A stretch of DNA of 32,959 nt. Origin: Planctomycetota bacterium. Lineage in GTDB: Bacteria > Planctomycetota > PUPC01 > DSUN01. Under the pieces are notes generated by a model. It was not told where the DNA came from, did no database searches, and worked only from the letters and a program-made list of their open reading frames with translations. The translations under genes and the position numbers were made by a program. Within the stretch, counting starts at the first letter, position 1; each line of letters opens with the position of its first letter. The DNA lies in assembly GCA_016872855.1 (NCBI GenBank), contig VGYV01000007.1, positions 1 to 32,959 of the forward strand, given 5' to 3'. Positions 2,155 to 32,950 of the stretch are shown here, in pieces.

Positions 2155-2182
2155 TTGACAGGCCGGGCGGGCAATGTATAAT
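2155..2182 (+). promoter_or_regulatory. Near-consensus sigma-70 promoter of the PilM-secretin cluster
   Basis: TTGACA at 2155-2160 and TATAAT at 2177-2182 are both perfect consensus boxes, 16 bp apart. The leader to the TTG start at 2274 is about 85 nt. Both boxes being perfect suggests strong constitutive expression. Confidence 0.85.
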
Positions 2183-2273
2183 TGCTAATGGGAAGGGGAG
2201 TTAGGCATTCGCGGGGCGTCGCCCGGACCTGCCCCGCCCCCTGGGGGCTGCGCAGAGCCGAGGAGAGCCAGGA

Positions 2274-4112
2274 TTGGCCTATAAGACGGCCTGGGGCATA
2301 GATATTGGCGAATCCGCCATCAAGGCGGTCAAGGTGCGCCGCTCGGGCGACACCGTGGTAATCGAGGACTATCACACGGTCGCGTGCGAGGCGCGGGCCG
2401 ACGCGGCGCAGGCCGGGGACCGCGACTTTCGGGTCCGCTCCGCCCTGTCCGAGCTGCAATATCAGGCCGACCTCGGGGGGGGCGGCGTGGCCGTGTCCCT
2501 GGCCGGCCGCGACGTGTTTCCCCGGTTCATCCCCCTGCCGCCGGTCGAGAAGAAGCGCATCCCGGAGATAGTGCGCTACGAGGCGCGCACCCAGATGCCC
2601 TTCCCTATTGATGAGGTGGTGTGGGACTACCAGCCCGTGAGCGGCATGGACACACCGGGCGAGGAGGTGGAGGTGGCCTTCTTTGCCGTGAAGAAGGCCA
2701 CGGTCTACAGCTTCCTGACCAACCTGCGGCTGGCGCGCGTGACGCCGACGCTGGTGGAGATCACGCCGCTCGCCCTCTACAACTTCCTGACCCACGACCG
2801 CAGCTTCGACAGCGGCACCGTGGTGATTGACGTGGGGGCGGCGAACACGGACCTGGTGATCATAGACGGGGAGCGCTTCTGGACGCGGAGCGTGGCGATT
2901 TCGGGGAACGACGTGACGCGGGCGCTCCAGGAGAAGTACCAGATTTCGTTCGAGGAGGCTGAGAGCCTCAAGCGGAAGGCGGCCAGTTCGACGCAGGCCG
3001 AGAAGATCTTCGGCGCGATGAAGCCGATCGTGGACGACCTGATCGGGGAGATCCAACGCTCGATCGGCTACTACAAGGCCCAGCAGTCGCGCACGGCCCG
3101 CATCGAGCGCGTGGTCCTGCTCGGCAACGCCTTCAAGCTCCCCCAGCTCGTCGAGTACTTCCGCAAGGGCCTCGACTACGAGGTCTCGGTCCTCGACCGC
3201 CTGAGCAAGGTGCGGGTGGGGACCGGGATGGACGCGGAGAAGTTCGAGGCGGAGCTGCCGAGCTACGCGGTGGCCCTGGGCCTGGCCGTCCAGGGCGTGG
3301 GCCTGGCGCGGGTGAACATAGACCTGATGCCGGGCGAGCTGGTGCGCGAGCGTCTGCTGCGGCGGAAGATCCCCTACGTTGCGGCCTCGCTCTTCCTGCT
3401 GGCCCTGCCGCTGGGCGTGGGGTACCACGCCGCCTCCACCGAGATTGACCGCTGCGCGGCGGAGGAGGGGCCGATCAAGAAGCGGACGGCCGAGTGCCAA
3501 GCGAAGATAAAGGAGGAGACCGTCGCGAAGGACCTCGGGGAGCTCGTGCCCAGGCTGGCGGCCGTCGGCGAGGCGGGGAAGGGGCGCGACGAGTGGGCAC
3601 TGTTCTTCGACGACCTGAACGGGGCGGTGAACCAGTTGGAGCGCGAGCCGTTCCGCCTGAACACGATCCGCGAGGTGCCCCCGGCCGAAGTGGCTGGCCT
3701 GATAGGTGAGACACTGGGCAAGGTGGGGATGCCAAAGCTCGAGGACATCCGCGCCCGGGGCCTCACGATCGAGGTGAAGTTCGAGAAGGACACCGGGTTC
3801 ACCGACAACGACGTGAGCCTGCTCCTCGGCCTGCTGGAGAAGCAGAAGCCGCGGGTGGTGGACGTGACGGGCCGTCAGCCCGAGATAATCCCCGTGGGCG
3901 AGCTCATCGGCCACCGCGCCGCCGCGGAAGGCTCAGCCGCCGACAAGGCGGTTGGGGGATGGGCCTATGCCTTCTGGCTCACGTATCGCTGGGATGGCTC
4001 GCCGCTGCCGACGGCCCCTGCGGCGGCCCCCAAGGCGCCGGAGCCGAAGGCGAAGCCCAAGCCGCGGCCCAAGCCGCGGGCGAAGGGGGATGACTTGAGG
4101 AAGATCGAATGA
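2274..4112 (+). CDS. PilM-PilN fusion: type IV pilus-like inner-membrane assembly protein
   Basis: 612 residues from a TTG start at 2274 (AGGAG at 2261-2265). Residues 1-345 are a PilM-type actin-like ATPase: a phosphate-1 loop (WGIDIGESAIKAVKV, from residue 7) and a phosphate-2 motif (VIDVGAANTDLVII, near residue 184). Residues 346-353 read RVNIDLMP, resembling the INLLP motif by which free PilN docks on PilM. A basic stretch and one transmembrane helix (about 366-384) follow, then some 200 periplasmic residues and a Pro/Lys-rich tail. This order equals PilM joined to PilN, so the cytoplasmic ATPase fold is tethered to the membrane. It is the first gene of the cluster, behind a perfect promoter. 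In known systems PilM-PilN-PilO link the cytoplasmic motor to the secretin; here no pilin or pilus ATPase is nearby. Confidence 0.85.
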   Translation: MAYKTAWGIDIGESAIKAVKVRRSGDTVVIEDYHTVACEARADAAQAGDRDFRVRSALSELQYQADLGGGGVAVSLAGRDVFPRFIPLPPVEKKRIPEIVRYEARTQMPFPIDEVVWDYQPVSGMDTPGEEVEVAFFAVKKATVYSFLTNLRLARVTPTLVEITPLALYNFLTHDRSFDSGTVVIDVGAANTDLVIIDGERFWTRSVAISGNDVTRALQEKYQISFEEAESLKRKAASSTQAEKIFGAMKPIVDDLIGEIQRSIGYYKAQQSRTARIERVVLLGNAFKLPQLVEYFRKGLDYEVSVLDRLSKVRVGTGMDAEKFEAELPSYAVALGLAVQGVGLARVNIDLMPGELVRERLLRRKIPYVAASLFLLALPLGVGYHAASTEIDRCAAEEGPIKKRTAECQAKIKEETVAKDLGELVPRLAAVGEAGKGRDEWALFFDDLNGAVNQLEREPFRLNTIREVPPAEVAGLIGETLGKVGMPKLEDIRARGLTIEVKFEKDTGFTDNDVSLLLGLLEKQKPRVVDVTGRQPEIIPVGELIGHRAAAEGSAADKAVGGWAYAFWLTYRWDGSPLPTAPAAAPKAPEPKAKPKPRPKPRAKGDDLRKIE

Positions 4113-4177
4113 GCGTCCCGCGCGGCGCCGCCGGCCTCTGGCTAGCCCGGGGGCTGATTGGCGAGGAAGGTTAGAGA

Positions 4178-5791
4178 ATGGGCTTCGTCCGCAAGCACTT
4201 CGCATGGCTGATCATGGGGGTAGTCCTCCTCGGGGAGATCGCCGCGCTCTGGTTCGTGACCGGCAAGCAGAGCGCAGCGGAGACAGCCCGCGAGAACCTC
4301 GAGAAGCTGCGCGAACAGCGCGACAAGCTCGAACGCGAGATCGTGGACATAGATAAGCGGATTGACGTGCACAAGGACCGCAAGCGCCTGGTGCGGCGCG
4401 AGCTGGGCGACTGCGCGCTCTTCCTGTGGCACACGGGCCAGGCCATCGAGGGACTCTTCGAGTCCCCTGAGCTTGCCCCCTACCGCGCGTGCCCCTGGGA
4501 GACGCCCCCGAACTTCGAAGTTTTCAAGATCCGCTTCGACACGGAATACCATGCCCAGGCCAAGGCGCTCACCCCGCTGATGGACAAGGTGGGCACGGAC
4601 CCTGCCATGCTCGCCTTCGCCGACGTCGGCGCCCTGGCCGCGGTCAATGTGCTGATCGGCGACGTGTTCGCCATGCAGAAGGAGTTCTGGGTCAAGAAGG
4701 AGCTGGTCCAGATCCTCGCCGCGGCGGAGGCAGAGCTCTTGAGCATCACGTATGGCAGCGGCGCAGCGGGCCCTGCGCGCCACCTGCCCGCCGCCGTAAG
4801 GGCCGCGATGGCGGCGGGGCCAGGCAAGCTGGCTGAGGAGATTCCCATCCAGTTCAGCATCTCCTGCAACTACCTCAAGTTGCACGGCGTCCTCGATGCC
4901 CTCCTCGGCTCGCGTCTGTGCCTGAGGATCGAGTCCGTCGCCAAGGTCAGCCGCTCGAAGGTGGTCGAGAAGCCGGCGGCTGCCCCTGCGCCCCCCAAGG
5001 GCGCTCCCGCCGGCAAGGCACCGGAGGCGCCCGCCCCCCAGCCCGAGCGGCGCGAATATGTGACTGTGGACATCACGGGCCACGTCGCCGACATCACGAT
5101 GGACGTCCAATCAGTCCTCTTCCCCGCGAGGGCCTTCGAGAGGAGGGCGAAGGAGGCGGAGGAGAAGGCGGCGGATAAGGCGAAGGTCCTGGAAGAGGTC
5201 GTCAAGCAGTGGCTCGACGAGCAGCTCCGCCGCACCGAGGCGCGCTTGAAGCTCTGCGAGGTGCCCGACCCCACCAAGCGGCCCGAGAAGGGGCTGGAGT
5301 GGGTCGCCCGCGAGCTCGGCGAGGTCGGGAACTTCGAGAAGGCGGCGCCCCCTGCCCCCGACAAGGCCCTGCCGCCGGTCAATGACGAGCTGTTCGGGGA
5401 GGGGCGCGAATACGTGTTCCCGGACGTCAAGGCGGCCCGTCTGTGGCTGAACCGCCGCTACGACTTCGAGCGGGCCAAGCTCGAGGCCTACGCGGCTCTC
5501 TGGCGTCGCACCCGGGCCGCCCTCGATGGCGGCAAGGGCGACGAGAAGTCCGGCGTCGGCGTCTTCACCAGCCCTGAGGGCATCACCGTGGCGCTCCGGC
5601 CGGCCGCCCAGTTCGACGCGAACCAGTGGTACGAGGCCGACTTCGTCCCTGGCGAGCGCTACACGGGCAGGCCCGACCCCAAGGAGCGCGACCCGCAGTC
5701 GCGCCTCGCGCAGGTGAAGCTGGGCCTCGTGACCTTCAAGCCGAGGGAGAACCGCGACGTGAGGCGCGCGGTCAAGGCGGCTGGGCGATAG
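4178..5791 (+). CDS. PilO-like bitopic inner-membrane protein with coiled coil
   Basis: 537 residues from ATG 4178, with GAGGAAGG about 8 bases upstream. A short cytoplasmic N-terminus is followed by one transmembrane helix (about residues 8-28, AWLIMGVVLLGEIAALWFV). A charged coiled coil (about 33-72, rich in Glu/Lys/Arg/Leu heptads) and a large periplasmic part follow. Pro/Ala-rich linkers occur near residues 265-290 and a second helical stretch near 325-350. The topology and its position directly after PilM-PilN match PilO and the Akkermansia pilus-like protein Amuc_1100, but at 537 residues it is far longer than PilO (about 200). No catalytic motif is visible. It probably forms a scaffold in the periplasm; the PilO assignment rests on topology and gene order rather than on sequence motifs. 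Confidence 0.65.
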   Translation: MGFVRKHFAWLIMGVVLLGEIAALWFVTGKQSAAETARENLEKLREQRDKLEREIVDIDKRIDVHKDRKRLVRRELGDCALFLWHTGQAIEGLFESPELAPYRACPWETPPNFEVFKIRFDTEYHAQAKALTPLMDKVGTDPAMLAFADVGALAAVNVLIGDVFAMQKEFWVKKELVQILAAAEAELLSITYGSGAAGPARHLPAAVRAAMAAGPGKLAEEIPIQFSISCNYLKLHGVLDALLGSRLCLRIESVAKVSRSKVVEKPAAAPAPPKGAPAGKAPEAPAPQPERREYVTVDITGHVADITMDVQSVLFPARAFERRAKEAEEKAADKAKVLEEVVKQWLDEQLRRTEARLKLCEVPDPTKRPEKGLEWVARELGEVGNFEKAAPPAPDKALPPVNDELFGEGREYVFPDVKAARLWLNRRYDFERAKLEAYAALWRRTRAALDGGKGDEKSGVGVFTSPEGITVALRPAAQFDANQWYEADFVPGERYTGRPDPKERDPQSRLAQVKLGLVTFKPRENRDVRRAVKAAGR

Positions 5792-5861
5792 GAGAGCGTC
5801 GCGCGGCGGCGCCCCAGGCCCGCCGCACGCCGCTGGGCGTCCCCTTGCGAAGGGGGTGTTG

Positions 5862-7460
5862 ATGGACCTGTCCGGCAGCAAAGAGTTCCTCTTCCGGCAC
5901 GGCGAGAAGCTCGTGCTGGGCCTGGTCATCCTGTTCGTGGGCTACAGGGTCTACCTCAACCTCTTCGGCGCCGAGGTCGTGCAGCCCGCGCGCAGGCCCG
6001 TCCAGCGCGTCGCGCCCCCCATGCCGGGCATGGAGATTGACGCCTCGTTCTGGCGGACCGCTTCGCCCTTCCTCTGCCCGCCGCCTGTCGAGGGCGCGAG
6101 GCACAACTGGTTCTACCCGCCCAAGACGCACTGGGGGAAATACGTGGAGCTGGGGGAAGGCAAGAAGGGCCGGGACGCGGCGCAGGTGCCCGTGGGGCGC
6201 AAGGTGGTGGGCTCCCCGCAAGTCACCGCACTCACCGAGGGTGAGAAGGCGTACCTGAACGTCCCCCCCGCCTACAAGGAGCTGACCCAGGTATGCCAGA
6301 TTGAGGCCAGCGCAGTCCCCGTGGCAAACAGCCAACCGCCCAGTGACATGCTGGTCATCAAGGCGGTGAAGGCTGGCTTTTGGGCCCGGGTCATGGTGAT
6401 GCTGGAGAACGAGGACCGCTTCTGCGTGGCCGTGATGGTCGCTCCTTCCGACATCGAAATCGAGACGGGGCTTGTAGAGGCCAAGATCGAGGAGATTCGG
6501 GAGAGGCCGCAGGCGCTGGGCACCGTGATCCTCCGCTTCAACGCCCCGCGCGGCTCCAAGACGCTGCCCGGCAAGGTGATCAACTACATCGAGCCCACCT
6601 ACTTCGAGGTCCGGCGCAAGGGCGAGCGCGACAAGGAGGACAGCGTGATCGGCAAAGTGCCGGGCCGCACCGTGGCGCCTGCCGAGCCCGGCCCGGGGCC
6701 GGTGCCCGCACCAAAGCCGAAGCCCGATGTCCCCGTCGGCTTCCCCGGCAGCGCGAAGGAGGCGCCGCCCGAGCCAAAAGGAGCACCACCTACCAAGGGG
6801 GCGCCCGCCGCCGATACGGGCGAGATGTCCTTTGAGGACATGGATGTCGAGGCCGAGGTGACCTATACCTACTTCATCCGCAGCGTCCTCGAGCCGCAGG
6901 TAGAGGGCGCGAAGACCGAGACCAGGGACGGCCCCCCCGTCTCCTACTGGACCTCCCCGCGCTTCACCTTCGTCTACCTCGGCGGCGACGCCCAGCACGC
7001 CAACATCCGTATCTACATCGGGCAGCGAGCCAAGACTCCCGAGGAGAAGAAGCTGGAGGAGTGGCGGGACTACGAGCGCGTGCCGATCGGTGGCTGGGTG
7101 GGCGAGGTGCCGAAGGAGTTCCGGCCCGCGCCCGAGGCCGCGGAGGGGGCCGGTCCAGAGCCGGGCAAAGGCGGACCCGCGAAGGCGAAAGCCGCGTCCC
7201 CGGCCCCGGGGGATGGCGCATCGGCGCGATTCGTCACCCGCTACGTCCTGGTCGCCATCGAGCAGAACGTGTTCCGCCCGAGCCCGCAGACGACGACCAG
7301 GTGGAAAGGAACGCAGCGGATCGTGCTTCAGACATATAGCGAGACTCAGGGACACCGAGTGGTCTTGCGCGACCCGAAGAACCGCCTGCACTGCCTCTGG
7401 CAGGAGACGAAGGCCACGGCTCCTCCCGTGAAGGGCAAGGAGGGCGGCGTAAAGCAATAG
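5862..7460 (+). CDS. Bitopic periplasmic scaffold protein of the pilus-like cluster
   Basis: 532 residues. ATG 5862 is preferred over the in-frame GTG 5856 and TTG 5859 because AAGGGGG at 5850-5856 is then correctly spaced. One transmembrane helix lies near the N-terminus (about residues 15-35, KLVLGLVILFVGYRVYLNLF). The rest is predicted to be periplasmic, with a long Pro/Ala/Gly/Lys-rich linker around residues 270-320 and another near 425-455. I do not recognise a domain. Position (third gene, before the secretins) is that of PilP or of the Amuc_1099-type proteins, which bridge the PilN/PilO platform and the secretin N-domains; no lipobox is present, so it is not a classical PilP lipoprotein. 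Its function is inferred from context only. Confidence 0.6.
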   Translation: MDLSGSKEFLFRHGEKLVLGLVILFVGYRVYLNLFGAEVVQPARRPVQRVAPPMPGMEIDASFWRTASPFLCPPPVEGARHNWFYPPKTHWGKYVELGEGKKGRDAAQVPVGRKVVGSPQVTALTEGEKAYLNVPPAYKELTQVCQIEASAVPVANSQPPSDMLVIKAVKAGFWARVMVMLENEDRFCVAVMVAPSDIEIETGLVEAKIEEIRERPQALGTVILRFNAPRGSKTLPGKVINYIEPTYFEVRRKGERDKEDSVIGKVPGRTVAPAEPGPGPVPAPKPKPDVPVGFPGSAKEAPPEPKGAPPTKGAPAADTGEMSFEDMDVEAEVTYTYFIRSVLEPQVEGAKTETRDGPPVSYWTSPRFTFVYLGGDAQHANIRIYIGQRAKTPEEKKLEEWRDYERVPIGGWVGEVPKEFRPAPEAAEGAGPEPGKGGPAKAKAASPAPGDGASARFVTRYVLVAIEQNVFRPSPQTTTRWKGTQRIVLQTYSETQGHRVVLRDPKNRLHCLWQETKATAPPVKGKEGGVKQ

Positions 7461-7465
7461 ACCAC

Positions 7466-7494
7466 TTGACGTTCCGAGTCGCGCGCGTTACAAT
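7466..7494 (+). promoter_or_regulatory. Sigma-70-like promoter of the secretin genes
   Basis: TTGACG at 7466-7471 and TACAAT at 7489-7494 are 17 bp apart, starting 5 bases after the stop codon of the upstream gene. The leader to the ATG at 7581 is about 80 nt. The secretins may therefore be expressed apart from the inner-membrane proteins. Confidence 0.75.
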
Positions 7495-7580
7495 AGCGTA
7501 GCTTTGCGGGCGGCACGCCGCCCGATGCAGGTTCGCGGGGGCAGCCTGCGACCTCTGACACGCGGTGCCACGAAAGGAGC

Positions 7581-10169
7581 ATGGGCGTGGTCACTCCAAG
7601 AGCGTTCCGCGCAGGACCCGTAGGGGCATTGCGGGGGCCAACCCCGGGACGGGCCGTCCTGGCCCTGCTGTTGGCCCTGCCCCTGTTGCTGCCCATGGCT
7701 TCGCCAGGCCGTGGCGAAGGCGCAGCCGACCCCGCGAAGGCGATGGAGGCCTTCATCGCGCAGCGCAAGGCCCAGATGGAGAAGGAGGAACGCGACTTCC
7801 AGCGCCTCCTCGACCAGGGCCGGTCCCTCCTCGCCGAGCACTCGTATGACCAGGCGAAGCGCGTCCTCGCCGAGGCCGCGCGCCTGCGCCCCGCCGACGA
7901 AACGTGTGCCCGCCTCCTCGCCGAGGCCGAGGCCCGCAACCCCGCCAAGGCCGGCCCAGAGCGCCTCATCGAGCGCCTGAAGGAGGAGCATCAGAGCAAG
8001 AACGCACTCCTCCAAGTCCAGCTCGACTTCAGCCTCGTCGAGGCCCGCAAAGCACTGAAGGCGGGCGAACACGCCCGCGCGCGCGAGCACGCCGAGCGCG
8101 TGCTCGACAGCGTGAGCTGCGTGGCCGACGCCGCCCGCGCGGCGAAGCTCCGCGCCGACGCCGAGGCCGTCCTCACCGCCGCCCGCGCCGCGGGTGACCA
8201 GGCGAAGGCCGCCGAACTCCAGGCCGCCATCGCCGAGCACAAGGCGCGCGCCGCGAAGGACACTTCGGCCACCCTCCTCGACCTCAGCCGCCAGGGCTGG
8301 GACTGGCTGAAGAAGGGCGACGGCGCGAAGGCCCTGGCCATCGCCGACGACATGCAGCGCCTCGACCCCGGCAATGGCCAGGCCGTGTGGCTGCGTCTCG
8401 AGGCCCAGCGGCTCGTGGGCGGCGCCGGCGACGAGGCGAAGATGAAGGCCGAGCGGAAGGAGGGCGAGAGGAAGCTCCTCGAAAACCTCGATGCCGAGTT
8501 CAAGGACCTCAAGGACGCCAAGCCCAAGATCGTCCTCTCCGGCAAGCGGCACCCGGGCGACTTCGTGGCCAGGGACGAGCGGCCCATCGAGGCCTGGGAG
8601 CAGCAGTACCGCGCCAAGCTCCGCCAGCCGGTCGAGGTCGAGCTGCGCGACGCCACCATCGCCGAGGCCTGCCGCTACCTGTCGGCTGCGGCCGACTGCA
8701 CGATGGTGCTCGACCCCGCGGTGGCCAAGGACACGCGGCGCCTCACCCTGCCCAAGATGACCATGAGCCTCGAACACGCCCTCCGGTGGGTCTGCCGCTT
8801 CTCCAAGTCCACCTACACCCTTCGTGACCACGCCATCCTCGTCACCACCCGCGGCGGCCTCCTCGACCAGCCAGTGACCCGGAACTACGACCTCAGCAGC
8901 CTCCTCATCCCCATCCGGTGCATCCGCAGCGCCTTCAACGGCGGCACGCAGGCCGACGTCCAGGGCGGCGGCGGACGCGAAACGGTCGCCTCCAACCGCC
9001 CCGGCCTGCGCGAGGACGAGACCAACGTTGTGGCCGAGGACACGATGGGCGAAACCTGGGTCCGCTTCATCCGCAACACCGTGGCACCCGACACCTGGGA
9101 GGAGCCCACCAAGGACATGGTGCAGCAGGCGCGCCAGCCCTACACCATCAACTACCGCAACGGCCGCATCGTCGTCGTCCACACCCCCGAAGTCCACGAG
9201 CAGATCGAACGCCTCCTCAACGACTTCCGCCGGGCGCGAAACCTCCAGGTCCACATCTTCGCCCGCTTCCTGGTCGTCCAGACCGACTTCCTGGAGCGCT
9301 ACGACCTCGACCTGGTGGGCCAGGGCTTCGACCTGGCGACCGACGACCTCACGCTCCAGCCCGGCACCTCGCTGCCCGAGGTCTACGGCTTCGTGAGCGA
9401 GCCGACCGACCCGTGGCAGGCAGGCACTACCATCCCCAACCCCACCCCGCCGCCCCCCACGCTGCCTGTGCCACCCCCTCGCCGCTCACTGATCGGCTAC
9501 CTCTACAACGACTCCGGCGTGAGCCTCGGCGGCGAGGGCGAGCTCGGCCTCGGCGCCGGCGACCCCCTGAGCATCCGCTGCTCCAGGATGGGCAGCCACG
9601 CCTGCAACGCCCTCCTACAGGCCGCCATCAAGCGCCGCAAGGGCACCGTCCTCACCGCACCCCGCCTCACCTGCTTCAACACCCAACGCGCCAACTTCCA
9701 GGCCGTGACCAACTACAACTACATCCGCTCCCTCAACTCCGACGGCGAGCCGGAAATCGGCAACGTGCCCGACGGCATCATCTTCGACGTCCAGCCCTTT
9801 GTCAGCTCGGACCGCCGCTACATCACCCTCGTCCTCCAGCCCCAGATGCGCACGCTGATGAACAGCGCCACGCTCCAGACCAGCGGCTTCACCTACGCCA
9901 CCACGGGCCTCCTGGCCTACCGCCGCGTGAACCTGCCCGACACGGTGCTCCGCAGCATCGCCACCACGGTGACCGTCCCCGACGGCGGCACCATGCTCGT
10001 CGGCGGGCTCGCCACCGTCCGCGAGCGCAGCGGCGAGGCCAGCGTCCCCATCCTCCACGACATCCCGCTCCTGAAGTACCTCTTCCGCGAGTGGACGCAA
10101 TTCGACAGCCGGGAGAGCCTCCTCGTCCTGGTGACCGCGGAAATCGTGCCGGACATCTTCGAGGAGTGA
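7581..10169 (+). CDS. Outer-membrane secretin 1 with N-terminal helical repeats
   Basis: 862 residues from ATG 7581 with AAAGGAG 1 base further upstream than average spacing would put it. The N-terminus has a basic region and a Leu/Ala-rich signal peptide ending near residue 45. Residues about 65-290 are alpha-helical and Ala/Glu/Lys-rich, with TPR-like units. Residues about 334-425 resemble an STN/secretin-N type domain, and a second N-domain lies near 490-550. The C-terminal part from about 553 is the secretin beta-domain. Its hallmarks are visible: GTVLTAPRLTCFNTQRANF, VPDGGTMLVGG (near 800), and the conserved end PILHDIPLLKYLF (near 823-836). It should form a multimeric outer-membrane ring. 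It is followed by a paralogue of the same architecture. Confidence 0.9.
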   Translation: MGVVTPRAFRAGPVGALRGPTPGRAVLALLLALPLLLPMASPGRGEGAADPAKAMEAFIAQRKAQMEKEERDFQRLLDQGRSLLAEHSYDQAKRVLAEAARLRPADETCARLLAEAEARNPAKAGPERLIERLKEEHQSKNALLQVQLDFSLVEARKALKAGEHARAREHAERVLDSVSCVADAARAAKLRADAEAVLTAARAAGDQAKAAELQAAIAEHKARAAKDTSATLLDLSRQGWDWLKKGDGAKALAIADDMQRLDPGNGQAVWLRLEAQRLVGGAGDEAKMKAERKEGERKLLENLDAEFKDLKDAKPKIVLSGKRHPGDFVARDERPIEAWEQQYRAKLRQPVEVELRDATIAEACRYLSAAADCTMVLDPAVAKDTRRLTLPKMTMSLEHALRWVCRFSKSTYTLRDHAILVTTRGGLLDQPVTRNYDLSSLLIPIRCIRSAFNGGTQADVQGGGGRETVASNRPGLREDETNVVAEDTMGETWVRFIRNTVAPDTWEEPTKDMVQQARQPYTINYRNGRIVVVHTPEVHEQIERLLNDFRRARNLQVHIFARFLVVQTDFLERYDLDLVGQGFDLATDDLTLQPGTSLPEVYGFVSEPTDPWQAGTTIPNPTPPPPTLPVPPPRRSLIGYLYNDSGVSLGGEGELGLGAGDPLSIRCSRMGSHACNALLQAAIKRRKGTVLTAPRLTCFNTQRANFQAVTNYNYIRSLNSDGEPEIGNVPDGIIFDVQPFVSSDRRYITLVLQPQMRTLMNSATLQTSGFTYATTGLLAYRRVNLPDTVLRSIATTVTVPDGGTMLVGGLATVRERSGEASVPILHDIPLLKYLFREWTQFDSRESLLVLVTAEIVPDIFEE

Positions 10170-10241
10170 TCGCGCCCGATCGTGCTTCGGCGGGGCGCAG
10201 GAATGCGGCCCGCCGGCCCTGCTGCTCAAAGGAGACGACCC

Positions 10242-12662: not shown

Positions 12663-12767
12663 GCCCCAGAGCGCCCCCGGTCGCCCGCGTGTGGCGGGCC
12701 GCACGCCCGTTCCGGTCCCGGCCTTTTCGCGCCCTGCGGCCTCACGCGGATTCCTGGACAGGTTCCT

Positions 12768-12918
12768 AAATGGGTTTCAGCGATTCGGAGCAATGGATTT
12801 GGTTTGGAGTGCGGCCTTCAGGCCGTGGGAGCCCTGATACGGGCTAAAGCCCGCACTCCAAACAGGTGCCTTGAGAGATGCAACCAACTTGGATGCTCCG
12901 AATCGCTGAAACCCATTT
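12768..12918. repeat. Nested palindromic element, REPIN-like core (E2) inside a perfect 25-bp inverted repeat
   Basis: The arms 12768-12792 and 12894-12918 are perfect 25-bp inverted copies. Nested inside, 12802-12863 holds a second inverted pair whose arms both begin GTTTGGAGTGCGG. Each inner arm then carries a mini-hairpin with a different stem, ggccTTCaggcc and gggctAAAgccc. GGAG lies at the foot of each hairpin. Confidence 0.9.
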
Positions 12919-13271
12919 GGTGTGCCGCGGAGCACGGGAGAAGGCAAGCGGGGTCGCGGATCTTTATGAGAACTTGACGCCCGGGCGTCCCGATTTGATG
13001 CGGGATTTACGCCGCATGGGGTATGCTTCCGACGGAAAGGAGAAGTGGCGAGTGCGGGAGGGTTCCGTTGGTCCTTTGCGTGAAAGGACCGCTGCCACGA
13101 CCGGACCACGCCCTGGCCAGTGCGAGGCAGCGCCCCAGCCGCCCAGGTGCGGCAGGCAGGACGGCCGTTTTAGTCCCGGCTCGCTTGCGCCCCGCGGCCG
13201 GCGATCGCTCGTGCGCCGCGGGGCGTGGTGTTTGGCATTGTGCGGCCCCACAGGCTGAGGCATTGAGGGAC
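12919..13271 (+). other. Gene-free leader upstream of the large TPR gene
   Basis: No convincing gene is seen in these 353 bp. An AAAGGAG followed by GTG at 13052 opens a 68-codon Arg/Pro/Gly-rich frame without recognisable features. A small hairpin (GTCCTTTGCGTGAAAGGAC) lies at 13070-13088. TTGACG (12974-12979) and TTGATG (12995-13000) occur, but neither has a good -10 box at 16-18 bp, so the promoter of the downstream operon is not identified. Confidence 0.5.
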
Positions 13272-16200
13272 ATGCGGCAGCCGTTGAACGCGCTTGTTCG
13301 CGCCGCCACCGCGGCGCTCGTCGTCGCCCTGGCCGGCATGGCCTGTGCCGGCACCCCCTCCTGGTCCCGCCGGCTGGAGTTCGCCTCGCGCCTCCTGCGC
13401 AACCACGGTTACGCCGACCTCTCCAAGCAGGTGGTGAATCAGCTCCTCGACGACCCGGCGATCAAGGGTCCCGAGCGGACCGAACTGTACAAGGCGGTGG
13501 GCGAATACCACGTTGAGGCTATCGAGAGCGTCAAGGGGAAGGACGCCTTCCAGCAGTGCATCTGGCACCTGGGCGAAGCCAGGAAGTACTTCACCAAGTA
13601 CGCCGAGGAGAAGAAGGGCGGCGGCTTCGAAATGCAGGTCCGCATCACCTGGCTCTCGGTTAACAGGGCTCGCGTCTACTCCCGAATGCTCGAGGAAGCC
13701 GACACACCGAAGGCCGACCAGGCGAAGCACAAGGCCGAAGCCGTCAGCGCCTACAGGGCCGCCATCAAGGAGTTCGAGGACCTCGCCAAGGCCAAGAAGG
13801 CCGAGGAGGACAAGGCGAAGGGCCTGGCGAAGCTCAAGGAGGACGCGAACTTCGTCCGCGTCCGCAACGAGCACGTCAGCGTGCGCATCTACCTCAACGA
13901 CACGCGCGTCGAGCTCGGCAAGTTCCTCAAGAAGACGGGCGCCGACGCCAAGGAGTGGCGGGCCCTGATTGACGCCGCGGTCAAGGACTACCGGGCCATG
14001 CTCTTCGAGTTCGGCGGCGCCGCAGGCCTCGCCCAGATCAACGTCAAGCTCGCCAAGGCCCTCATGGAGCTCGGCCCCGAGGGCGACAAGGAGGCCATCG
14101 AACGGCTCGACGAAGTGTGGGAGAACCGCCAGGCCTACCTCGACTTCCTGGCCATCCCGTGCGAGGCCATGCACGTCAAGGCCATGATCCTCGTCCGCCA
14201 AAAGAAGCACTCGGAGGCGACCGACGTCCTGGACGACATGATCAGCCGGCGCACAGGCCGCGGATGGGAGCCGGCCAAGCTCCCGATTGACCAAGTCAGC
14301 GAGCGGGTCACCGACATCCTCCAGAACCTCGATGAGGGGGAAATCCAGAAGCAATACGACGCCAAGGCCCTCGCCGAGTCGTTCGTCCTCCTGGCCGAGG
14401 CATATGCCGCGCGCGGCAAGGCCGCCGAGGACGCCAAGAAGCCCGCCAAGGAGAGCGAGCGCCTCTATGGCATGGCCTACGAGATCGCCCTCGGCGTCTG
14501 GGAAGCCAAGCTGATGCTCCCCGACCCCAAGTACGCCGGCCTCGTCCAGACCTGGCGCGAAAAGGGCCGCCGGCCACTCTCCCTCACCGACCTGAACATC
14601 ATGATCCGCAAGCTGCTCGAGGAGGGGGAGAGGTTCCGCGAGAAGGACCCCGAGCGCTCGCGCGCGGCCTACCTCAAGGCCGCCAAGCTCTACACCGAGG
14701 TCGCCGGCCGCACCAAGCCCGAGCCCGACCAGGTGCGCAAGATCTGGGACAGCGTCGCCAAGTGTTACTATGCGGGTGGCGACTGCATGTCCGCCTACGT
14801 CGTCTTCACCGGCCTGTCGCGTTGGTCCCTCAGGCCCCAGCCTCCGCATCCTGTGGCCTATGGTTTTGCCCAGGCCGCCGTGTCCGCCATCCGCGCTCAG
14901 TACGACCGGAGCGTGAAGGACAAGGCCAGCCCGTCGCAGATCGCCTTCGAGAAGAAGCTCCTCGGTGACGCGAATCTGTGGGCCGAGTCCCTCAGCATCG
15001 AGGGCCCCGAGGGCCACGCCATCGCCGAGGCGCGGCGGCTGCGCGGCGAGAAGAAGTTCCACGAAGCTCTCAAGCTCCTTGACGGCGTGCGTCAGGAGTC
15101 CCGGGTCTACCCCCACGCGCTCCACGAGCGCGCGATCATCCTCCGCGAGATGTTCCTCGCACTCCCCAAGGAGGAGCGGGCCGCCCTGGCCGGCCAACGC
15201 CTCCTCAAGGGCGCGCTCGAAGCCTTCCAAGGCTGCCTCGACTTCGCCAGGAAGAGGCTCCCCGAGCTCAAGGGCGACGACGCGGCGGAGGACCGAAAGC
15301 GCCTCATCGAGGTCATCGGCTCCACCATCACCATCTACTGCGACACGCTCCTGAAGGACTACGTCAACCAGCCCGCCAGGGTGCTCGACCTGACAGGGAA
15401 TCTGGCCCAGGACTACCCCGGCATCGAGGCGGCGGTCGCGTATCCCCTCATCCTCTACACCCGGATGCACGCCGCCTACGTCATCGCCACCGGCAAGGAC
15501 GCCGACCAGGCCGCCAAAGCCCTTGCCCCGCTGGACGACGCCTGGAGGCGTCTCAGGGAGTTCCCGGACTTCCGCTACCTTCCCAACGCCTGCAAGATGG
15601 GCGCCATGGCCTACAACGAAGTGGCCAAGGGCCTCGAAGAGCAGGCCAAGAAGGCCACGGGCGCCGCGAAGGCCGACCTCGAGAAGCGCGCCGCCGCCGC
15701 TCGCGACCGCGGCCTCGAGTTCTACCTCGAACTCCTCTCCCTCGCCCCCCACCAGACCCTCGTCACCTACCACTACGTCCTCGGCCAGCTCGAGAAGCGG
15801 GTCTCCGACAACAAGAACGCCGACTACCGCCGCATCGTCGAGCTCGCCCCCAGGGCCCTCGGCATGTTCCGCCCCGGCGAGGCCGACCCTGACCGCCTGG
15901 TCCAGGTCAAGCTCATCCTGGCCAACGCCTACTTCCACCTGCGCAACTGGCGCGAGGGCATCACCGTCCTCGAGGACGCCAACGGCCGCTACGAGGCCGA
16001 GCACCAGAAGCGGATGAAGATCTATGAGGACATCAAGAGGCGGGCCGAGGAGGCCGGCAAGCAGGCTCCCAAGCTCCCCGCGCGCCACCCACTCCAGGCC
16101 CAGGTGCTCGAAGCGCTGGGCCGAGCCTACGTCGAGACGAAGACGAAGCTCAAAGAAGCCAAGCTGATCTTCGCGGAGCGGGTGAAGAACTACTACCCCT

Positions 16201-16493
16201 CGCGGGAGAAGCCCGAACACTGGGTGGCCATGCTCTACCTGTGCAGGGCTGCCCACCTCGAAGGTGACCACGAGGAGGCCGTCAAATACCTCTTCGTCGT
16301 CTCCGAGGGCATTGCCGCGAACCCCGTCACCACGGGGGAAGGCGCGCCCAAAGACTTCCTCGACCTGGCGGCCAAGGTGCAGCAGGAAGTGAGAGCGCTT
16401 CCAGAGTCCCTGCTGAAGCGGAAACTCCTGGACGCGCTCGACGGCATCCTCAAGAAGCTCAGGGACGCAGTGAGCAAGGGAGACAAGCGTTGA
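13272..16493 (+). CDS. Large exported TPR-repeat protein
   Basis: 1073 residues from ATG 13272. The frame is open further upstream to 13023, but only the 13272 start gives a proper signal peptide (MRQPLNALVRAATAALVVALAGMACAG), so it is chosen although the ribosome binding site is weak. The mature protein is almost entirely alpha-helical, Ala/Glu/Lys/Leu-rich, with many degenerate tetratricopeptide units (for example around residues 30-100, 370-420, 830-880 and 920-1050). There is no transmembrane segment after the signal and no catalytic motif. It overlaps the next TPR gene by 4 bp (TTGA). Large exported TPR proteins are common partners of TolQ/TolR-type motors, such as the Glt proteins of Myxococcus gliding. 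It is probably a periplasmic adaptor; its target is unknown. Confidence 0.75.
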   Translation: MRQPLNALVRAATAALVVALAGMACAGTPSWSRRLEFASRLLRNHGYADLSKQVVNQLLDDPAIKGPERTELYKAVGEYHVEAIESVKGKDAFQQCIWHLGEARKYFTKYAEEKKGGGFEMQVRITWLSVNRARVYSRMLEEADTPKADQAKHKAEAVSAYRAAIKEFEDLAKAKKAEEDKAKGLAKLKEDANFVRVRNEHVSVRIYLNDTRVELGKFLKKTGADAKEWRALIDAAVKDYRAMLFEFGGAAGLAQINVKLAKALMELGPEGDKEAIERLDEVWENRQAYLDFLAIPCEAMHVKAMILVRQKKHSEATDVLDDMISRRTGRGWEPAKLPIDQVSERVTDILQNLDEGEIQKQYDAKALAESFVLLAEAYAARGKAAEDAKKPAKESERLYGMAYEIALGVWEAKLMLPDPKYAGLVQTWREKGRRPLSLTDLNIMIRKLLEEGERFREKDPERSRAAYLKAAKLYTEVAGRTKPEPDQVRKIWDSVAKCYYAGGDCMSAYVVFTGLSRWSLRPQPPHPVAYGFAQAAVSAIRAQYDRSVKDKASPSQIAFEKKLLGDANLWAESLSIEGPEGHAIAEARRLRGEKKFHEALKLLDGVRQESRVYPHALHERAIILREMFLALPKEERAALAGQRLLKGALEAFQGCLDFARKRLPELKGDDAAEDRKRLIEVIGSTITIYCDTLLKDYVNQPARVLDLTGNLAQDYPGIEAAVAYPLILYTRMHAAYVIATGKDADQAAKALAPLDDAWRRLREFPDFRYLPNACKMGAMAYNEVAKGLEEQAKKATGAAKADLEKRAAAARDRGLEFYLELLSLAPHQTLVTYHYVLGQLEKRVSDNKNADYRRIVELAPRALGMFRPGEADPDRLVQVKLILANAYFHLRNWREGITVLEDANGRYEAEHQKRMKIYEDIKRRAEEAGKQAPKLPARHPLQAQVLEALGRAYVETKTKLKEAKLIFAERVKNYYPSREKPEHWVAMLYLCRAAHLEGDHEEAVKYLFVVSEGIAANPVTTGEGAPKDFLDLAAKVQQEVRALPESLLKRKLLDALDGILKKLRDAVSKGDKR

Positions 16494-17677
16494 GACCCAC
16501 TACCCCCAGACCCCCTCTCGCGCGGCTGGCGGGCGGCCTGTTGCTGCTCCTGGCGGCCGCCACGGCCCAGGCCGGCGCCGTCGTCACCGACGCCGTCCAC
16601 CTCAAGACCGCGAAGGACCCTATCATCGAGCGGGGCACAATCCTCGCCGAGTCGATGGACGGGATCGAGATCCAGACCGCCCAGGGCAAGGGCAGCTTCC
16701 CTCTGAGCCGTATCATCCAGGTGGACTACGGCGATAGCCCCGAGGCATACAAGCGCGGCCACGACCGCCGCGAGCAAGGCATCTACCGCGAGGCTATCAC
16801 CTACTTCGAGAATGCGCCAAGGACCCCGAACGCCCGCAAGTTCTGGATCGAGCCGGCCTCCCTCTACTTCGCTGGCCTCTGCTACCTCGAGGAGGGTGCC
16901 GACCTCGATGCTGCCCAGGCGAAGTTCCGCGAACTGCTCCAAGCCCACCCCCAGTCGCGCTGGGTGCCTGACGCCATGTTGGGCCTGGGGAAGGCCCTCT
17001 TCGCCGCCAAGAAGTGGGATCCCGCCCTCGCACAGTTCGGCAGCCTGGCCAAGCTGGCCATCCCCAAGGGCGACACCCCAGGCTGGAGCGATTGGCTCGC
17101 CACCGCCTCGCTCTGGCAGGGCAAGACCTACCTCGAGGCTAAGCGGCCCGACGAGGCCATGAAGTGCGCCAAGAAGGTCCTCGCCGTCATCACGGACCCC
17201 AAGCACGACCTGTACATACAGGGCAAGATGCTCGAAGCGATGGTCCTCCTCGAACAGAGCGAGCCCGAGAAGGCCGTGGCGGAGCTCACTGACCTGATCA
17301 AGAGGCTCGCCCCCCGCGTGGCCGACGAAGTCGAGCACCCCACCCCCACCGCCCGCATGCAGCGCACCGAGGCCCAGTGCCACAACGCCCTCGGCCAGGC
17401 CCTCCTCAAGCAGCACGCCAAGACCAAGAAGGACGAAGACCTACGCGGCGCGCTCCTCGCCTTCCTCTGGACCGTGGTCCTCTACCCCAGGGCCCAGTTC
17501 GTCCCCGAGCACATGGAGGCCCTCTACTTCGCCTCCCAGTGCTTCGACCGGCTGAAGGAGAAAGCCCGCGCAGCAGAGCTGATGCGGGAGCTGACGGACC
17601 GCTATCCGGAGAACCCCTACACCCGCGTGCCCGGCGCAGTGAAAGCCGGCGCCCCGAGAAAGGAGACCGACAAGTGA
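16490..17677 (+). CDS. Exported TPR protein, CpoB/YbgF-like
   Basis: 395 residues from TTG 16490, whose TTGA overlaps the upstream TGA stop; AAGGGAG at 16476-16482 is correctly spaced. A signal peptide with a Leu/Ala-rich core (GGLLLLLAAATAQAGA) is followed by a small N-terminal beta-rich part (about 28-85). Several TPR units come next (about 85-380), including the tidy repeat LDAAQAKFRELLQAHPQSRW near residue 140. The organisation, and its place just before ExbB, recall CpoB/YbgF of the Tol-Pal system, in which a periplasmic TPR protein works with TolQ-TolR. It overlaps the following ExbB gene by 4 bp (GTGA), which suggests translational coupling. Confidence 0.75.
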   Translation: MRPTTPRPPLARLAGGLLLLLAAATAQAGAVVTDAVHLKTAKDPIIERGTILAESMDGIEIQTAQGKGSFPLSRIIQVDYGDSPEAYKRGHDRREQGIYREAITYFENAPRTPNARKFWIEPASLYFAGLCYLEEGADLDAAQAKFRELLQAHPQSRWVPDAMLGLGKALFAAKKWDPALAQFGSLAKLAIPKGDTPGWSDWLATASLWQGKTYLEAKRPDEAMKCAKKVLAVITDPKHDLYIQGKMLEAMVLLEQSEPEKAVAELTDLIKRLAPRVADEVEHPTPTARMQRTEAQCHNALGQALLKQHAKTKKDEDLRGALLAFLWTVVLYPRAQFVPEHMEALYFASQCFDRLKEKARAAELMRELTDRYPENPYTRVPGAVKAGAPRKETDK

Positions 17678-18480
17678 ACAGGATGGGTTGGGTACTGGCG
17701 GCGATGCTGGCGGCGACGGTGGTGGCCGTGGGCCTGACGATGGCGTGGACGCCGGCCGTGGCGGGCGAGGGCGAGAAGGAGAAGCCGGGAACGGTCGAGG
17801 TCACGCCGAAGAAGGCGGAGCCTGAGCCCCCCGGGCCCGCGGAACGGGAGCCGGCCCCCGAGCGGAGCACGTCCCTGTTGGCCCAGCTCAACAAGGGCGG
17901 CGTCATCGGCTGGATCATCATGGCCCTCTCCCCCGTCGCCCTCGCGCTCATCATCGAGCACAGCGTCACCCTCCGCCGCGACAAGATGTGCCCGCCCGAG
18001 CTGGTGCAGGAGCTGAACGACTTCTTCAACGAGGAGCAATACGAGGAGGCACTCGAGCTGTGCAACGTCGAGCGCAACTTCCTCACCAACACCGTGCGGG
18101 CCGGCCTGGCGCGCCTCGATGCCGGCTTCGAGGCCATGCAGCAGGGCATGACCTCCGCCGCCGAAGAGGAGTTCACTAACTACCAGCTTCGCATTAGCTG
18201 GCTCTCCCTCATCGGCAACGTCGCCCCGATGATGGGCCTCCTCGGCACCGTCCAGGGCATGATCGGCGCCTTCGGCAAGATCGCCGAGATGACCGTCGTC
18301 AAGCCCTCCGTCCTCGCAGGCAACATCAACGTCGCGCTCGTCACCACCTTCCAGGGCCTCACCGTTGCCATCCCCGTCATGTGCGCCTACCAGTACATCG
18401 CCAACCGCATCGTCTCCAACGTCCTGGCCTCCGGCAACACGGTGAGCGAGCTGATGGACCGCTTCCGCGGCAAGAAGTAG
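17674..18480 (+). CDS. exbB: ExbB/TolQ/MotA-family proton channel subunit
   Basis: 268 residues from GTG 17674 (AGGAG 8 bases upstream); ATG 17683 would leave the ribosome binding site too far. The N-terminus has an extra signal-like hydrophobic helix (about 5-28) and a Pro/Glu-rich linker (about 30-65). Three ExbB/TolQ helices follow: GGVIGWIIMALSPVALALII (about 72-92), a helix with GLLGTVQGMIGAFG (Thr192), and one with VTTFQGLTVAIPV (Thr224/Thr225). These threonines correspond to the channel-lining positions of TolQ/ExbB/MotA. It should form a pentamer around an ExbD pair in the inner membrane and use the proton gradient to produce movement. The N-terminal extension resembles the longer ExbB versions with a periplasmic leader. 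The partners are the next two genes. Confidence 0.9.
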   Translation: MNRMGWVLAAMLAATVVAVGLTMAWTPAVAGEGEKEKPGTVEVTPKKAEPEPPGPAEREPAPERSTSLLAQLNKGGVIGWIIMALSPVALALIIEHSVTLRRDKMCPPELVQELNDFFNEEQYEEALELCNVERNFLTNTVRAGLARLDAGFEAMQQGMTSAAEEEFTNYQLRISWLSLIGNVAPMMGLLGTVQGMIGAFGKIAEMTVVKPSVLAGNINVALVTTFQGLTVAIPVMCAYQYIANRIVSNVLASGNTVSELMDRFRGKK

Positions 18481-18518
18481 GCCAGGCGCCGTTGCCACAC
18501 CTGTGGAGGTCCGACAAG

Positions 18519-18974
18519 ATGCTCAAGAGCCCCAGCCGGCGAATCATGCTGACCAAGCTCAACATGACGCCCATGATTGACTGCGTCTTCCTCCTCAACC
18601 TCTTCTTCATGACCGTCACCGAGCTCACGCGCCAGGACGAGATCGAGGCCCTGTTGCTGCCGGACATCGAGAACGCCAAGGCCGACGACAACCCGGACCC
18701 CGAGCGCCTGGTGATCAACGTCATGAAGGACGGGGCGATGCTCATCAGCGGCACCGAGCGCACTGATGACCAGGTGATTGACGCCTTGATCACCGAGTCC
18801 CGCCTGACCAGGACCCGGGAGGGGGTGAGCGACAGGACGGTCCTCATCAAGGCCGACAAGCGCACGCCCTTCAGGTTCATCAGGAAACTCATGTTCTGGT
18901 GCGTCCAGCACAACATCAAGATCTGGCGCGTCTCCTTCGGCATCGAGCCGGCCCAAATGGAGGGCGGCCCATAG
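18519..18974 (+). CDS. exbD: ExbD/TolR-family protein, first copy
   Basis: 151 residues from ATG 18519 with GGAGGT 8 bases upstream. It has a short basic cytoplasmic N-terminus and the single ExbD transmembrane helix (about residues 18-36). Its start, LNMTPMIDCVFLL, carries the essential membrane aspartate, Asp21. The remaining periplasmic domain (about 40-145) has the usual TolR/ExbD pattern with a conserved 'LIKADKRTPF' strand. It functions as the proton-responding rotor/stator partner of ExbB. It differs clearly from the second copy in the periplasmic domain, so the two are not a recent duplication. Confidence 0.9.
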   Translation: MLKSPSRRIMLTKLNMTPMIDCVFLLNLFFMTVTELTRQDEIEALLLPDIENAKADDNPDPERLVINVMKDGAMLISGTERTDDQVIDALITESRLTRTREGVSDRTVLIKADKRTPFRFIRKLMFWCVQHNIKIWRVSFGIEPAQMEGGP

Positions 18975-19018
18975 CCCCACGCTGCCGAGGGACCTCATAG
19001 AGCGAGGAGCCTTCCACA

Positions 19019-19471
19019 ATGCCTCTCATCAGCCAGGACACGAAGAAGAGGGTCACGCTCACCGAGCTGAACATGACCCCCATGATTGACTGCGTGTTCC
19101 TCCTCCTCCTGTTCTTCATGGTGGGCATGAAGTTCAAGGAGCTGGACCGGAAGCTCGACACGGACCTGCCGCAGATGGGCAAGCCGAAGCCCGAGGACCC
19201 ATTCGAGCTCAAGACCGAGCTGTGGATCGAAATCCGCGTCCGACCGGGAACCTCGGGCGACAATGCCCAGCCCCTCTACGTCCTCGACCAGGTGCCCATG
19301 GACGCGGCGAGGCTCCACGAGGCCCTGCGCCGCCGGGCAGCAGTCCCGGGTGTCATCAATGACCCCGTCATCCTCGACCCCAGCGACAATGCCCACCACG
19401 GCTGGATCATGACCGCGATGGACTACCTGAACGGGCTGAGGTTCAAGAGCATCAATTTCCGGCAGCGGTGA
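19019..19471 (+). CDS. exbD: ExbD/TolR-family protein, second copy
   Basis: 150 residues from ATG 19019 with GAGGAG 9 bases upstream. The N-terminal transmembrane helix starts LNMTPMIDCVFLLLLFF, with the essential aspartate at Asp24, so both ExbD copies look proton-competent. The periplasmic part (about 45-150) is polar and keeps the 'MDYLNGLRFKSINF' type end of the family. One ExbB followed by two different ExbD genes is the composition of the AglR-AglQ-AglS motor of Myxococcus and is also common in PVC bacteria. No TonB-like protein with a periplasmic Pro-rich linker is encoded nearby. Confidence 0.9.
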   Translation: MPLISQDTKKRVTLTELNMTPMIDCVFLLLLFFMVGMKFKELDRKLDTDLPQMGKPKPEDPFELKTELWIEIRVRPGTSGDNAQPLYVLDQVPMDAARLHEALRRRAAVPGVINDPVILDPSDNAHHGWIMTAMDYLNGLRFKSINFRQR

Positions 19472-19495
19472 CCCCCTGCCGATGGAGGCCCGCTG

Positions 19496-20176
19496 ATGCC
19501 GCGTTCTGCCCCAGCCCTGCTTGTCGCGCTTGCCGCACTCGCCTGTGCCTTGGCCGGCGAGGGCCAGAAGCCCGAGCTGCCAGGGCTCCGCCTCGACCTC
19601 AAGGCCAAGACCATCGAGTTCGACGGCACCTTCTGCCTCGGCGAATACCCTCTCGAGCTCCTCATCTGCCAGAACACCCTCAAAGACTACGAATCCATGA
19701 TCTCCTCCCCCTGCAAGCCCAGCGTCCTCCACACCGCCCTCCTCGCCCTCGGCCTCAAGCCGCGCGTCCGCGACAAGAAGGAGCCGGGCGTCGTCCTCCG
19801 CGAGGGCGACCCCGTGGACCTCCGCCTCCGCTTCACCCGCGAACGCAAAGAGGTCACAGTCGAGCCCCGCGAACTCATCGTCCACCTCGAATCCAAGAGG
19901 CACATCGAGGCCACCCCCTTCGTCTTCTTCGGCTCCTTCCTCTTCCCCGACCCCGAGAACGAGAAGCGCATGATCTACCTGGGCGACGCCGAGAACTGGC
20001 TCATCGGCCTCCTCGGCGACACGGCGAGCGTCATTGACCTCCCGCCCGCCGCCGCGGGCAAGTACGGCGCCCTGGCCATTGACACCAAGGCCGCTCCGCC
20101 CAAGGGCTCCAAAGTCACCGTCATCCTCTCCCCGGCCAAGGACCGCAAGCCCCCCGAGGCCGAGAAGGAGAAGTGA
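19496..20176 (+). CDS. Exported YdjY-type domain protein
   Basis: 226 residues from ATG 19496 with GGAGG 7 bases upstream. It has a signal peptide (MPRSAPALLVALAALACALAG). The mature start (LRLDLKAKTIEFDGTFCLGEYPLELLICQ) and the following 'KDYESMI...KPSVLHTALLALGLKP' are what I recognise as the YdjY domain, a small conserved exported domain frequent in planctomycetes. The function of YdjY is unknown; in E. coli a YdjY gene lies in a predicted redox-related operon. The tail is Lys/Pro/Glu-rich. It is the last gene of the TPR-ExbB-ExbD run, 24 bp after ExbD, so it is probably co-transcribed and may be a periplasmic accessory of the motor. Confidence 0.65.
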   Translation: MPRSAPALLVALAALACALAGEGQKPELPGLRLDLKAKTIEFDGTFCLGEYPLELLICQNTLKDYESMISSPCKPSVLHTALLALGLKPRVRDKKEPGVVLREGDPVDLRLRFTRERKEVTVEPRELIVHLESKRHIEATPFVFFGSFLFPDPENEKRMIYLGDAENWLIGLLGDTASVIDLPPAAAGKYGALAIDTKAAPPKGSKVTVILSPAKDRKPPEAEKEK

Positions 20177-29233: not shown

Positions 29234-29256
29234 CTGTGTGCCCGCTCCTTTCTCCG

Positions 29257-32681: not shown

Positions 32682-32950
32682 CCGGCGGCTCACGCCGCCG
32701 GCAAAACCCTGTCGTCCCTTCGGGACTTGGGCTTTTTCTGAGAAGGCTCTCCGGGCTTTCTTGTGGGTGCCCACAAGGGGGGCGCCAAGCCGAGGAACCC
32801 TTCTACCTCCCTCAGCATAGGCATGGCAAGGACTTACGCCGAAATACACCGGTGCCGGCGCTGGATCGCCAGCTGCTCGCGCCGACCGACAACCACAACC
32901 CCTGGGGGCTACCCACAAAGAACCCCGAAGCGGCTCTGAGAAATGCGGGC
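32682..32950. repeat. Repeat region at the right edge
   Basis: It holds ccggcggcTCACgccgccgg at 32682-32701 and gtcccTTCgggac at 32714-32726, both known from the array at 23-25 kb. Two imperfect inverted arms follow at about 32730-32770 and 32906-32945 (shared TTTCT, CTTTGTGGGT-like words), about 135 bp apart. No gene is supported in 32670-32959. Confidence 0.6.

Follow-up and report, generated by a model that had tools for sequence, protein, structure and literature searches.

Among described systems, the Amuc_1098-1102 locus (MUL2) of Akkermansia muciniphila comes closest to the first part of the gene cluster analysed here; in it, the relatives of PilM, of a PilO-fold protein and of the secretin belong to a system for the attachment and uptake of glycans (PMC13174399, PMC12418764, PMC4960237). 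Other parts of the cluster resemble the type IVa pilus machinery (PilM-PilN-PilO-PilP-PilQ), type II secretion systems and the ExbBD/TolQR/AglRQS motors. We analysed a stretch of 32,959 nucleotides from a Planctomycetota bacterium (assembly GCA_016872855.1, contig VGYV01000007.1, positions 1 to 32,959, forward strand), here called the window, being one contig of a fragmented 8.88-Mb genome, and found by checking its open reading frames (ORFs) a cluster of eleven + strand genes at 2274-20176, downstream of a consensus promoter. We propose that this cluster encodes an envelope-spanning secretin machine energised by the proton motive force (PMF), most plausibly for macromolecule uptake, and put the probability of this reading at roughly 50%. 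To our knowledge, the secretin systems studied so far are powered by cytosolic ATPases or by phage extrusion; the coupling of a secretin to a proton motor would, if true, represent a new power arrangement. In the open-licence literature we found no description of a joined secretin-ExbB/ExbD system in Planctomycetes. The features of the cluster are as follows.

2155-2182, + strand: sigma-70 consensus promoter TTGACA-16-TATAAT ahead of the cluster, 12 of 12 consensus positions matching
2274-4112, + strand: PilM-PilN fusion, 612 amino acids, with PilM_2, TIGR01175 and PDB profile matches
4178-5791, + strand: O, predicted Amuc_1100/PilO fold, bitopic with N-terminal transmembrane (TM) helix, coiled coil and ferredoxin-like periplasmic domain
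5856-7460, + strand: P, bitopic protein, in slot 2 after PilM phylum-wide
7581-10169, + strand: secretin 1, 862 amino acids, signal peptide, PF00263 1.9e-25
10182-12662, + strand: secretin 2, 826 amino acids, N-terminal tetratricopeptide repeat (TPR), PF00263 3.6e-19, start codon uncertain
12768-12918, no strand: inverted-repeat element resembling a miniature inverted-repeat transposable element (MITE) or repetitive extragenic palindrome (REP), 37-nt arms, inside a 609-bp gap
13272-16493, + strand: TPR1, exported helical-repeat protein of 1073 amino acids with signal peptide
16490-17677, + strand: TPR2, exported TPR protein of 395 amino acids, TPR_6 2e-15
17674-18480, + strand: ExbB/TolQ-type proton channel, PF01618 1.3e-25, start codon uncertain
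18519-18974, + strand: ExbD 1 with TM aspartate D21, PF02472 5.1e-16
19019-19471, + strand: ExbD 2 with TM aspartate D24, PF02472 9.3e-19
19496-20176, + strand: YdjY-domain exported protein, NF040466 1.8e-25

The likeness to MUL2, which the first-pass annotation of this DNA had missed, comprises a long PilM-like protein matching NF045709 (Amuc_1101 family) with 250 bits over residues 8-453, below the cut-off of 650, the Amuc_1100-fold protein O directly after PilM and a secretin with N-terminal TPRs. The cluster differs from MUL2 in that its secretins score 71 and 45 bits against the Amuc_1098 model, for which the cut-off is 750, and match in the C-terminal gate domain only; in that no candidate ORF for a pilin-like Amuc_1102 was seen in the window cluster with models which do not cover short diverged pilins; and in the presence of ExbB-ExbD-ExbD and TPR genes, which are not described as MUL2 parts in the accessible sources. 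The PilM-PilN fusion proposed in the annotation is borne out. The chain consists of an actin-fold PilM (residues 1-345; Pfam 1e-39, TIGR01175 9.8e-51), an N-L-x-P motif at 350-353, one TM helix at ~366 and a PilN-like remainder. A profile built from 24 PilM relatives retrieves the solved PilM from the PDB at 2.7e-62, residues 346-466 match Myxococcus PilN in the same type of search (3jc8_Na, E 5.9e-7) and P353 of the junction motif is conserved in 24/24 relatives. As judged from these profiles, PilM and its type IVa partner PilN are thus present in a single chain.

The model of O (pLDDT 69) gives the TM helix, the coiled coil and the ferredoxin-like domain listed above, and in a Foldseek comparison the top-ranking structures are without exception Amuc_1100 from Akkermansia (best E 1.8e-4), followed by PilO (5.4e-3 for the M. 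xanthus PilO model and 0.027 for the PilO crystal structure), suggesting that O is the PilO-fold inner-membrane partner of PilM-PilN. In most loci throughout the phylum, iterative profile searches find the O family in slot 1 and the P family in slot 2 behind PilM. The sequences of O and P have no significant match in the PDB. P consists of a cytosolic H-x-E-K motif just N-terminal of its single TM helix, a Pro-rich linker of low model confidence and a C-terminal β-domain. The motif is conserved phylum-wide (H15 in 28/35, K18 in 32/35) and may be where the motor or PilMN makes contact with P. In position and layout, with its TM anchor and its C-terminal β-domain, P is putatively GspC/PilP-like, and it may have a GspC/PilP-like or a TonB-like role. 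The cluster hence shares PilM, a fused PilN, the PilO fold and a secretin with the type IVa pilus machinery, and differs by having a proton motor, TPR proteins and two secretins and by lacking PilB, PilC, PilT and a pilin. With type II secretion systems it shares the secretin and, putatively, a bitopic protein of GspC-like layout, but not GspE/F or pseudopilins.

Secretin 1 matches the MshL, Amuc_1098 and PilQ models, all below their cut-offs, and in secretin 2 residues 84-116 match TPR_2 at 9e-5, also below that model's cut-off. Elsewhere in the same genome, contig C35 (L199:7067-14067) encodes a second secretin (1113 amino acids), followed by a second PilM (578 amino acids) and a 614-residue protein without Pfam match, and contig C40 (L200:6718-8994, - strand) carries two more secretin-domain matches ~1.5 kb apart, one of which was recovered as a labelled ORF. 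TPR2 profile matches occur at the equivalent position across families. TPR1 is fast evolving, its full-length homologue being found in the nearest relative alone, and it was dropped as a synteny marker for this reason; a protein of ~1000 amino acids nonetheless occupies its place in most loci. A 214-residue stretch on contig C281 (3777-4397, - strand) is 42% identical to TPR1 residues 664-877 and represents a partial paralogue.

The motor genes carry the residues expected of a proton motor. The TM aspartates of both ExbD proteins are invariant (D21 28/28, D24 28/28), the ExbB threonines T192 and T225 are kept in 28-29 of 30 sequences, and P185 and G191 in 29/30. Conservation of the ExbD aspartates and ExbB threonines suggests that the ExbB-ExbD motor is probably functional. 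The proteins score highest against TolQ/TolR models, and one ExbB with two ExbD proteins and exported TPR proteins is also the make-up of AglRQS-Glt. In contrast to ExbBD, TolQR and AglRQS, the motor is joined to a secretin, and TonB, TolA, TolB, Pal and TonB-dependent receptors were not recognised in the cluster; TonB itself was not searched for genome-wide. TonB-dependent receptors are nearly absent, with one plug domain in this genome and none in the complete relative G031, so that the motor probably has another client and is unlikely to serve mainly such receptors. At four further loci (L218, L228, L230, L240), at least four tandem ExbD-type ORFs follow one ExbB. A recent account of Planctomycetes-Verrucomicrobia-Chlamydiae (PVC) bacteria describes TPR-tolQ-tolR-tolR-vWA clusters (PMC12204202, 2025), which share the TPR gene, the TolQ-like gene and the two different TolR-like genes with our cluster, but this account is without a secretin and puts at its centre a vWA transducer, which the window lacks. 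The linkage to secretin and PilMNO is new relative to it.

The coupling of the PilMN/secretin platform to ExbB-ExbD-ExbD, proposed in the first-pass annotation, is supported by synteny across the phylum. A long PilM is present in ~72 of 99 sampled relatives. In 27/72 of these genomes, the best ExbB of the genome follows PilM at a distance of 8.7-18.6 kb and is encoded on the same strand, while well under one such case is expected under random placement (rough estimate from genome sizes). PilM-ExbB linkage far exceeds chance. We read 64 ExbB loci, 60 being evaluable for a neighbouring secretin, and 45 of these 60, from 34 families, have a same-strand secretin between -8.5 and +6 kb relative to ExbB. 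As loci were partly picked as PilM-linked and partly as unlinked, this proportion is biased, and the better figure is 13 of the 16 evaluable among 20 best-ExbB loci not selected for linkage. Two or more ExbD genes are present in 61/64 ExbB loci. The check suggested in the annotation, whether the platform and motor parts stay adjacent in relatives, thus came out in its favour. A contig profile scan returned 80 loci, all from Planctomycetota or, judged by match, mislabelled as other groups.

Variant loci indicate which unit is the most stable. Five loci (L097-L099, L101, L102) have the order secretin-TPR-TPR-ExbB-ExbD-ExbD followed by another secretin and have no PilM match, an alkaline-phosphatase-superfamily protein preceding the further secretin in L097, L098 and L102; the upstream ORFs tested in L097-L099 and L102 are housekeeping genes or without assignment. 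In L125, from a Phycisphaerae metagenome-assembled genome, secretin-ExbB-ExbD-ExbD follow each other directly with no TPR gene in between. As the PilM-less loci keep this order, the secretin belongs with the motor: judged by gene order, the motor is partnered by the secretin, and the cluster can more easily do without PilMNO. We suggest that the most stable unit comprises secretin, TPR and motor, PilMNO accompanying it in many but not all lineages. In Candidatus Uabimicrobium amorphum, an engulfing planctomycete (L121/G099), the PilM-O-secretin part maps to ~9.29 Mb, the TPR-TPR-ExbB-ExbD-ExbD part to 2.82 Mb. Fragmented contigs were rejected as evidence of such splitting, as many PilM contigs stop before ExbB could be reached.

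The eleven same-strand genes, the 609-bp gap and the 4-bp overlaps (TPR1/TPR2 at 16490-16493, TPR2/ExbB at 17674-17677) described in the annotation are real, and for the promoter, a shuffled sequence would give 0.6 sites of any quality across the whole region. Its division into two halves at 12663-13271 proved wrong. Two more near-full-length copies of the repeat element within the gap, of 99% identity, lie on contigs C93 and C102, its inner hairpin is matched by dozens of partial copies in the genome, and in the nearest relative (G001), the sole member of the same family in the sample, the gap measures 30 bp at the same place. The comparison indicates that the gap is a secondary insertion with the repeat element, for which reason we rejected it as a border of two systems and regard the genes as one array; the reduced clusters, too, keep the secretin with TPR-ExbB-ExbD.

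From these data we derive the following model. PilM-PilN, as a cytosolic ring with inner-membrane anchor, would together with O and P form an alignment platform in the style of type IV pili; the secretins would act as the outer-membrane gate, and ExbB with two different ExbD proteins as the proton-driven motor. The exported TPR1 and TPR2 may act in the periplasm as connectors between the secretin and either motor or platform. Protons passing through ExbB-ExbD would shift the secretin assembly or open it, replacing or supplementing a PilB/PilT-type ATPase. The most plausible task is the passage of macromolecules, polysaccharides or proteins, over the outer membrane into the spacious periplasm of Planctomycetota. 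That motor and secretin are coupled is somewhat more likely than not on the grounds of synteny, and PMF as the power source is suggested by the conserved motor residues together with the gene linkage. Uptake, taken by itself, is a tentative assignment, rather less likely than not but best supported by context. Uptake of dextran into the periplasm of Planctomycetes is sensitive to carbonyl cyanide m-chlorophenylhydrazone (CCCP), and these bacteria possess crater-like outer-membrane complexes joined to the inner membrane and bearing fibres, the composition of which is unknown (PMC5394234); in a later genome survey, the planctomycetal route of import is still described as unknown (PMC11131199). 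As CCCP also cuts ATP and other PMF-driven work, the result with dextran is not specific to ExbBD. The cluster is a strong candidate for the planctomycetal apparatus pulling large molecules, e.g. polysaccharides, through the envelope. The furthest-reaching version, according to which a PMF-driven, ATPase-free, inward-acting class of secretin in many Planctomycetota families is the uptake apparatus of the crater-like structures, seems doubtful to us.

Several observations weigh against a PMF-energised uptake machine. The evidence is gene linkage, which is not physical contact; in G031, G054, G010, G098, G063 and Candidatus Uabimicrobium amorphum PilM-O lies far from the ExbB cluster and the motor has no adjacent secretin; some clusters have two or even three secretins, which known machines do not; the weak model of P (pLDDT 53.9) gives no significant match to PDB folds; and no carbohydrate-active enzyme (CAZyme) was recognised adjoining the cluster in the window, leaving the substrate unconstrained. 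In addition, PilB-type ATPases are encoded in 99/99 genomes.

This last point bears on the explanation that fares best among the alternatives, though we consider it rather unlikely: an ordinary MUL2-like platform and secretin of the type IV pilus kind, run by PilB/PilT from elsewhere, the ExbB-ExbD-ExbD-TPR genes being a separate Tol-like system sharing the operon. The annotation had noted that pilin, PilB and PilC are absent from the window, which holds, and had proposed a pilus-less system, which is not supported, since contig C303 of this genome carries three PilB, a PilC and an N-methyl pilin. The cluster may therefore be served by an ATPase encoded outside it, and co-occurrence with pilB, suggested in the annotation as a check, is uninformative, as the ATPases are universal. 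The separation of platform and motor parts in some lineages and the interpretation of Akkermansia MUL2 as pilus biogenesis (PMC13174399) fit the same explanation. Against it, ATPase genes are found in no cluster locus read, a PilB profile used with a positive control giving no match there, whereas the motor is linked across 34 families; rearranged loci still hold secretin and motor together; and the second secretin-PilM pair on contig C35 could serve the pilus. In G047 a PilB-like ORF lies 1.5 kb past an ExbB which has no nearby PilM or secretin.

A PMF-powered machine of the same build could also export enzymes or fibre subunits rather than import. Known secretin systems are for the most part exporters, signal peptides are found on planctomycetal CAZymes (PMC11131199) and fibres are visible on the crater-like structures (PMC5394234), but the cluster is without a conserved gene for an exported substrate, and we regard this as improbable. 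No more credible is a motor for gliding or surface motility like Myxococcus AglRQS-Glt, moving along or through an envelope complex: both combine a single TolQ-like protein with two TolR-like ones and exported TPR proteins (PMC3169522), a vWA force transducer is reported next to TPR-tolQ-tolR-tolR clusters in PVC bacteria (PMC12204202) and surface movement occurs in some Planctomycetota, yet Agl-Glt as described has neither secretin nor PilMN, the many families with the cluster are unlikely all to be gliders and neither the window nor ten tested downstream ORFs encode a vWA protein. A Tol-Pal-like bridge holding the outer membrane, energised for constriction and not transporting, would agree with crater-like structures fastening the inner to the outer membrane (PMC5394234) and with the TolQ/TolR scores, but it is equally improbable given that secretins are gated channels, needless for a pure tether, and that TolA, TolB and Pal were not recognised.

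For the PMF-energised uptake machine favoured here, the cluster provides concrete genes to delete, making the question of planctomycetal macromolecule uptake testable, and it connects the MUL2 glycan locus of Akkermansia with a system occurring across the phylum Planctomycetota. A suitable species, provided that it carries the cluster, would be Planctopirus limnophila, which is harmless and genetically tractable and in which three PilQ-like genes have already been deleted (PMC11958385).

The place of the YdjY gene is taken in other families by an alkaline-phosphatase-superfamily protein and/or a further secretin. Downstream of ExbD, L092, L094, L097, L098, L102, L081 and L079 encode a membrane-anchored protein of the alkaline-phosphatase/sulfatase superfamily, often with TPRs; a reading of this 'sulfatase' as a sign of sulfated-glycan use was rejected, the checked members lacking the canonical C/S-x-P-x-R at the expected place. 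A diverged ExbB after YdjY in Phycisphaerae was likewise rejected, the three Pfam-matching ones being SIS-domain proteins. Elsewhere in the window, a ~1.6-kb array of 67-, 148- and 247-bp repeat units (GTTCGCAGTCCCGAAGGGACTGG...) at 23265-24884 follows a citramalate/homocitrate-synthase-like gene, an 823-residue protein at 27008-29476 (- strand) has GreA/GreB domains at its C-terminus only, and an Acido-Lenti-1 RNA (RF01687) at 32682-32727 scores 46.9 bits against the Rfam gathering score of 37.

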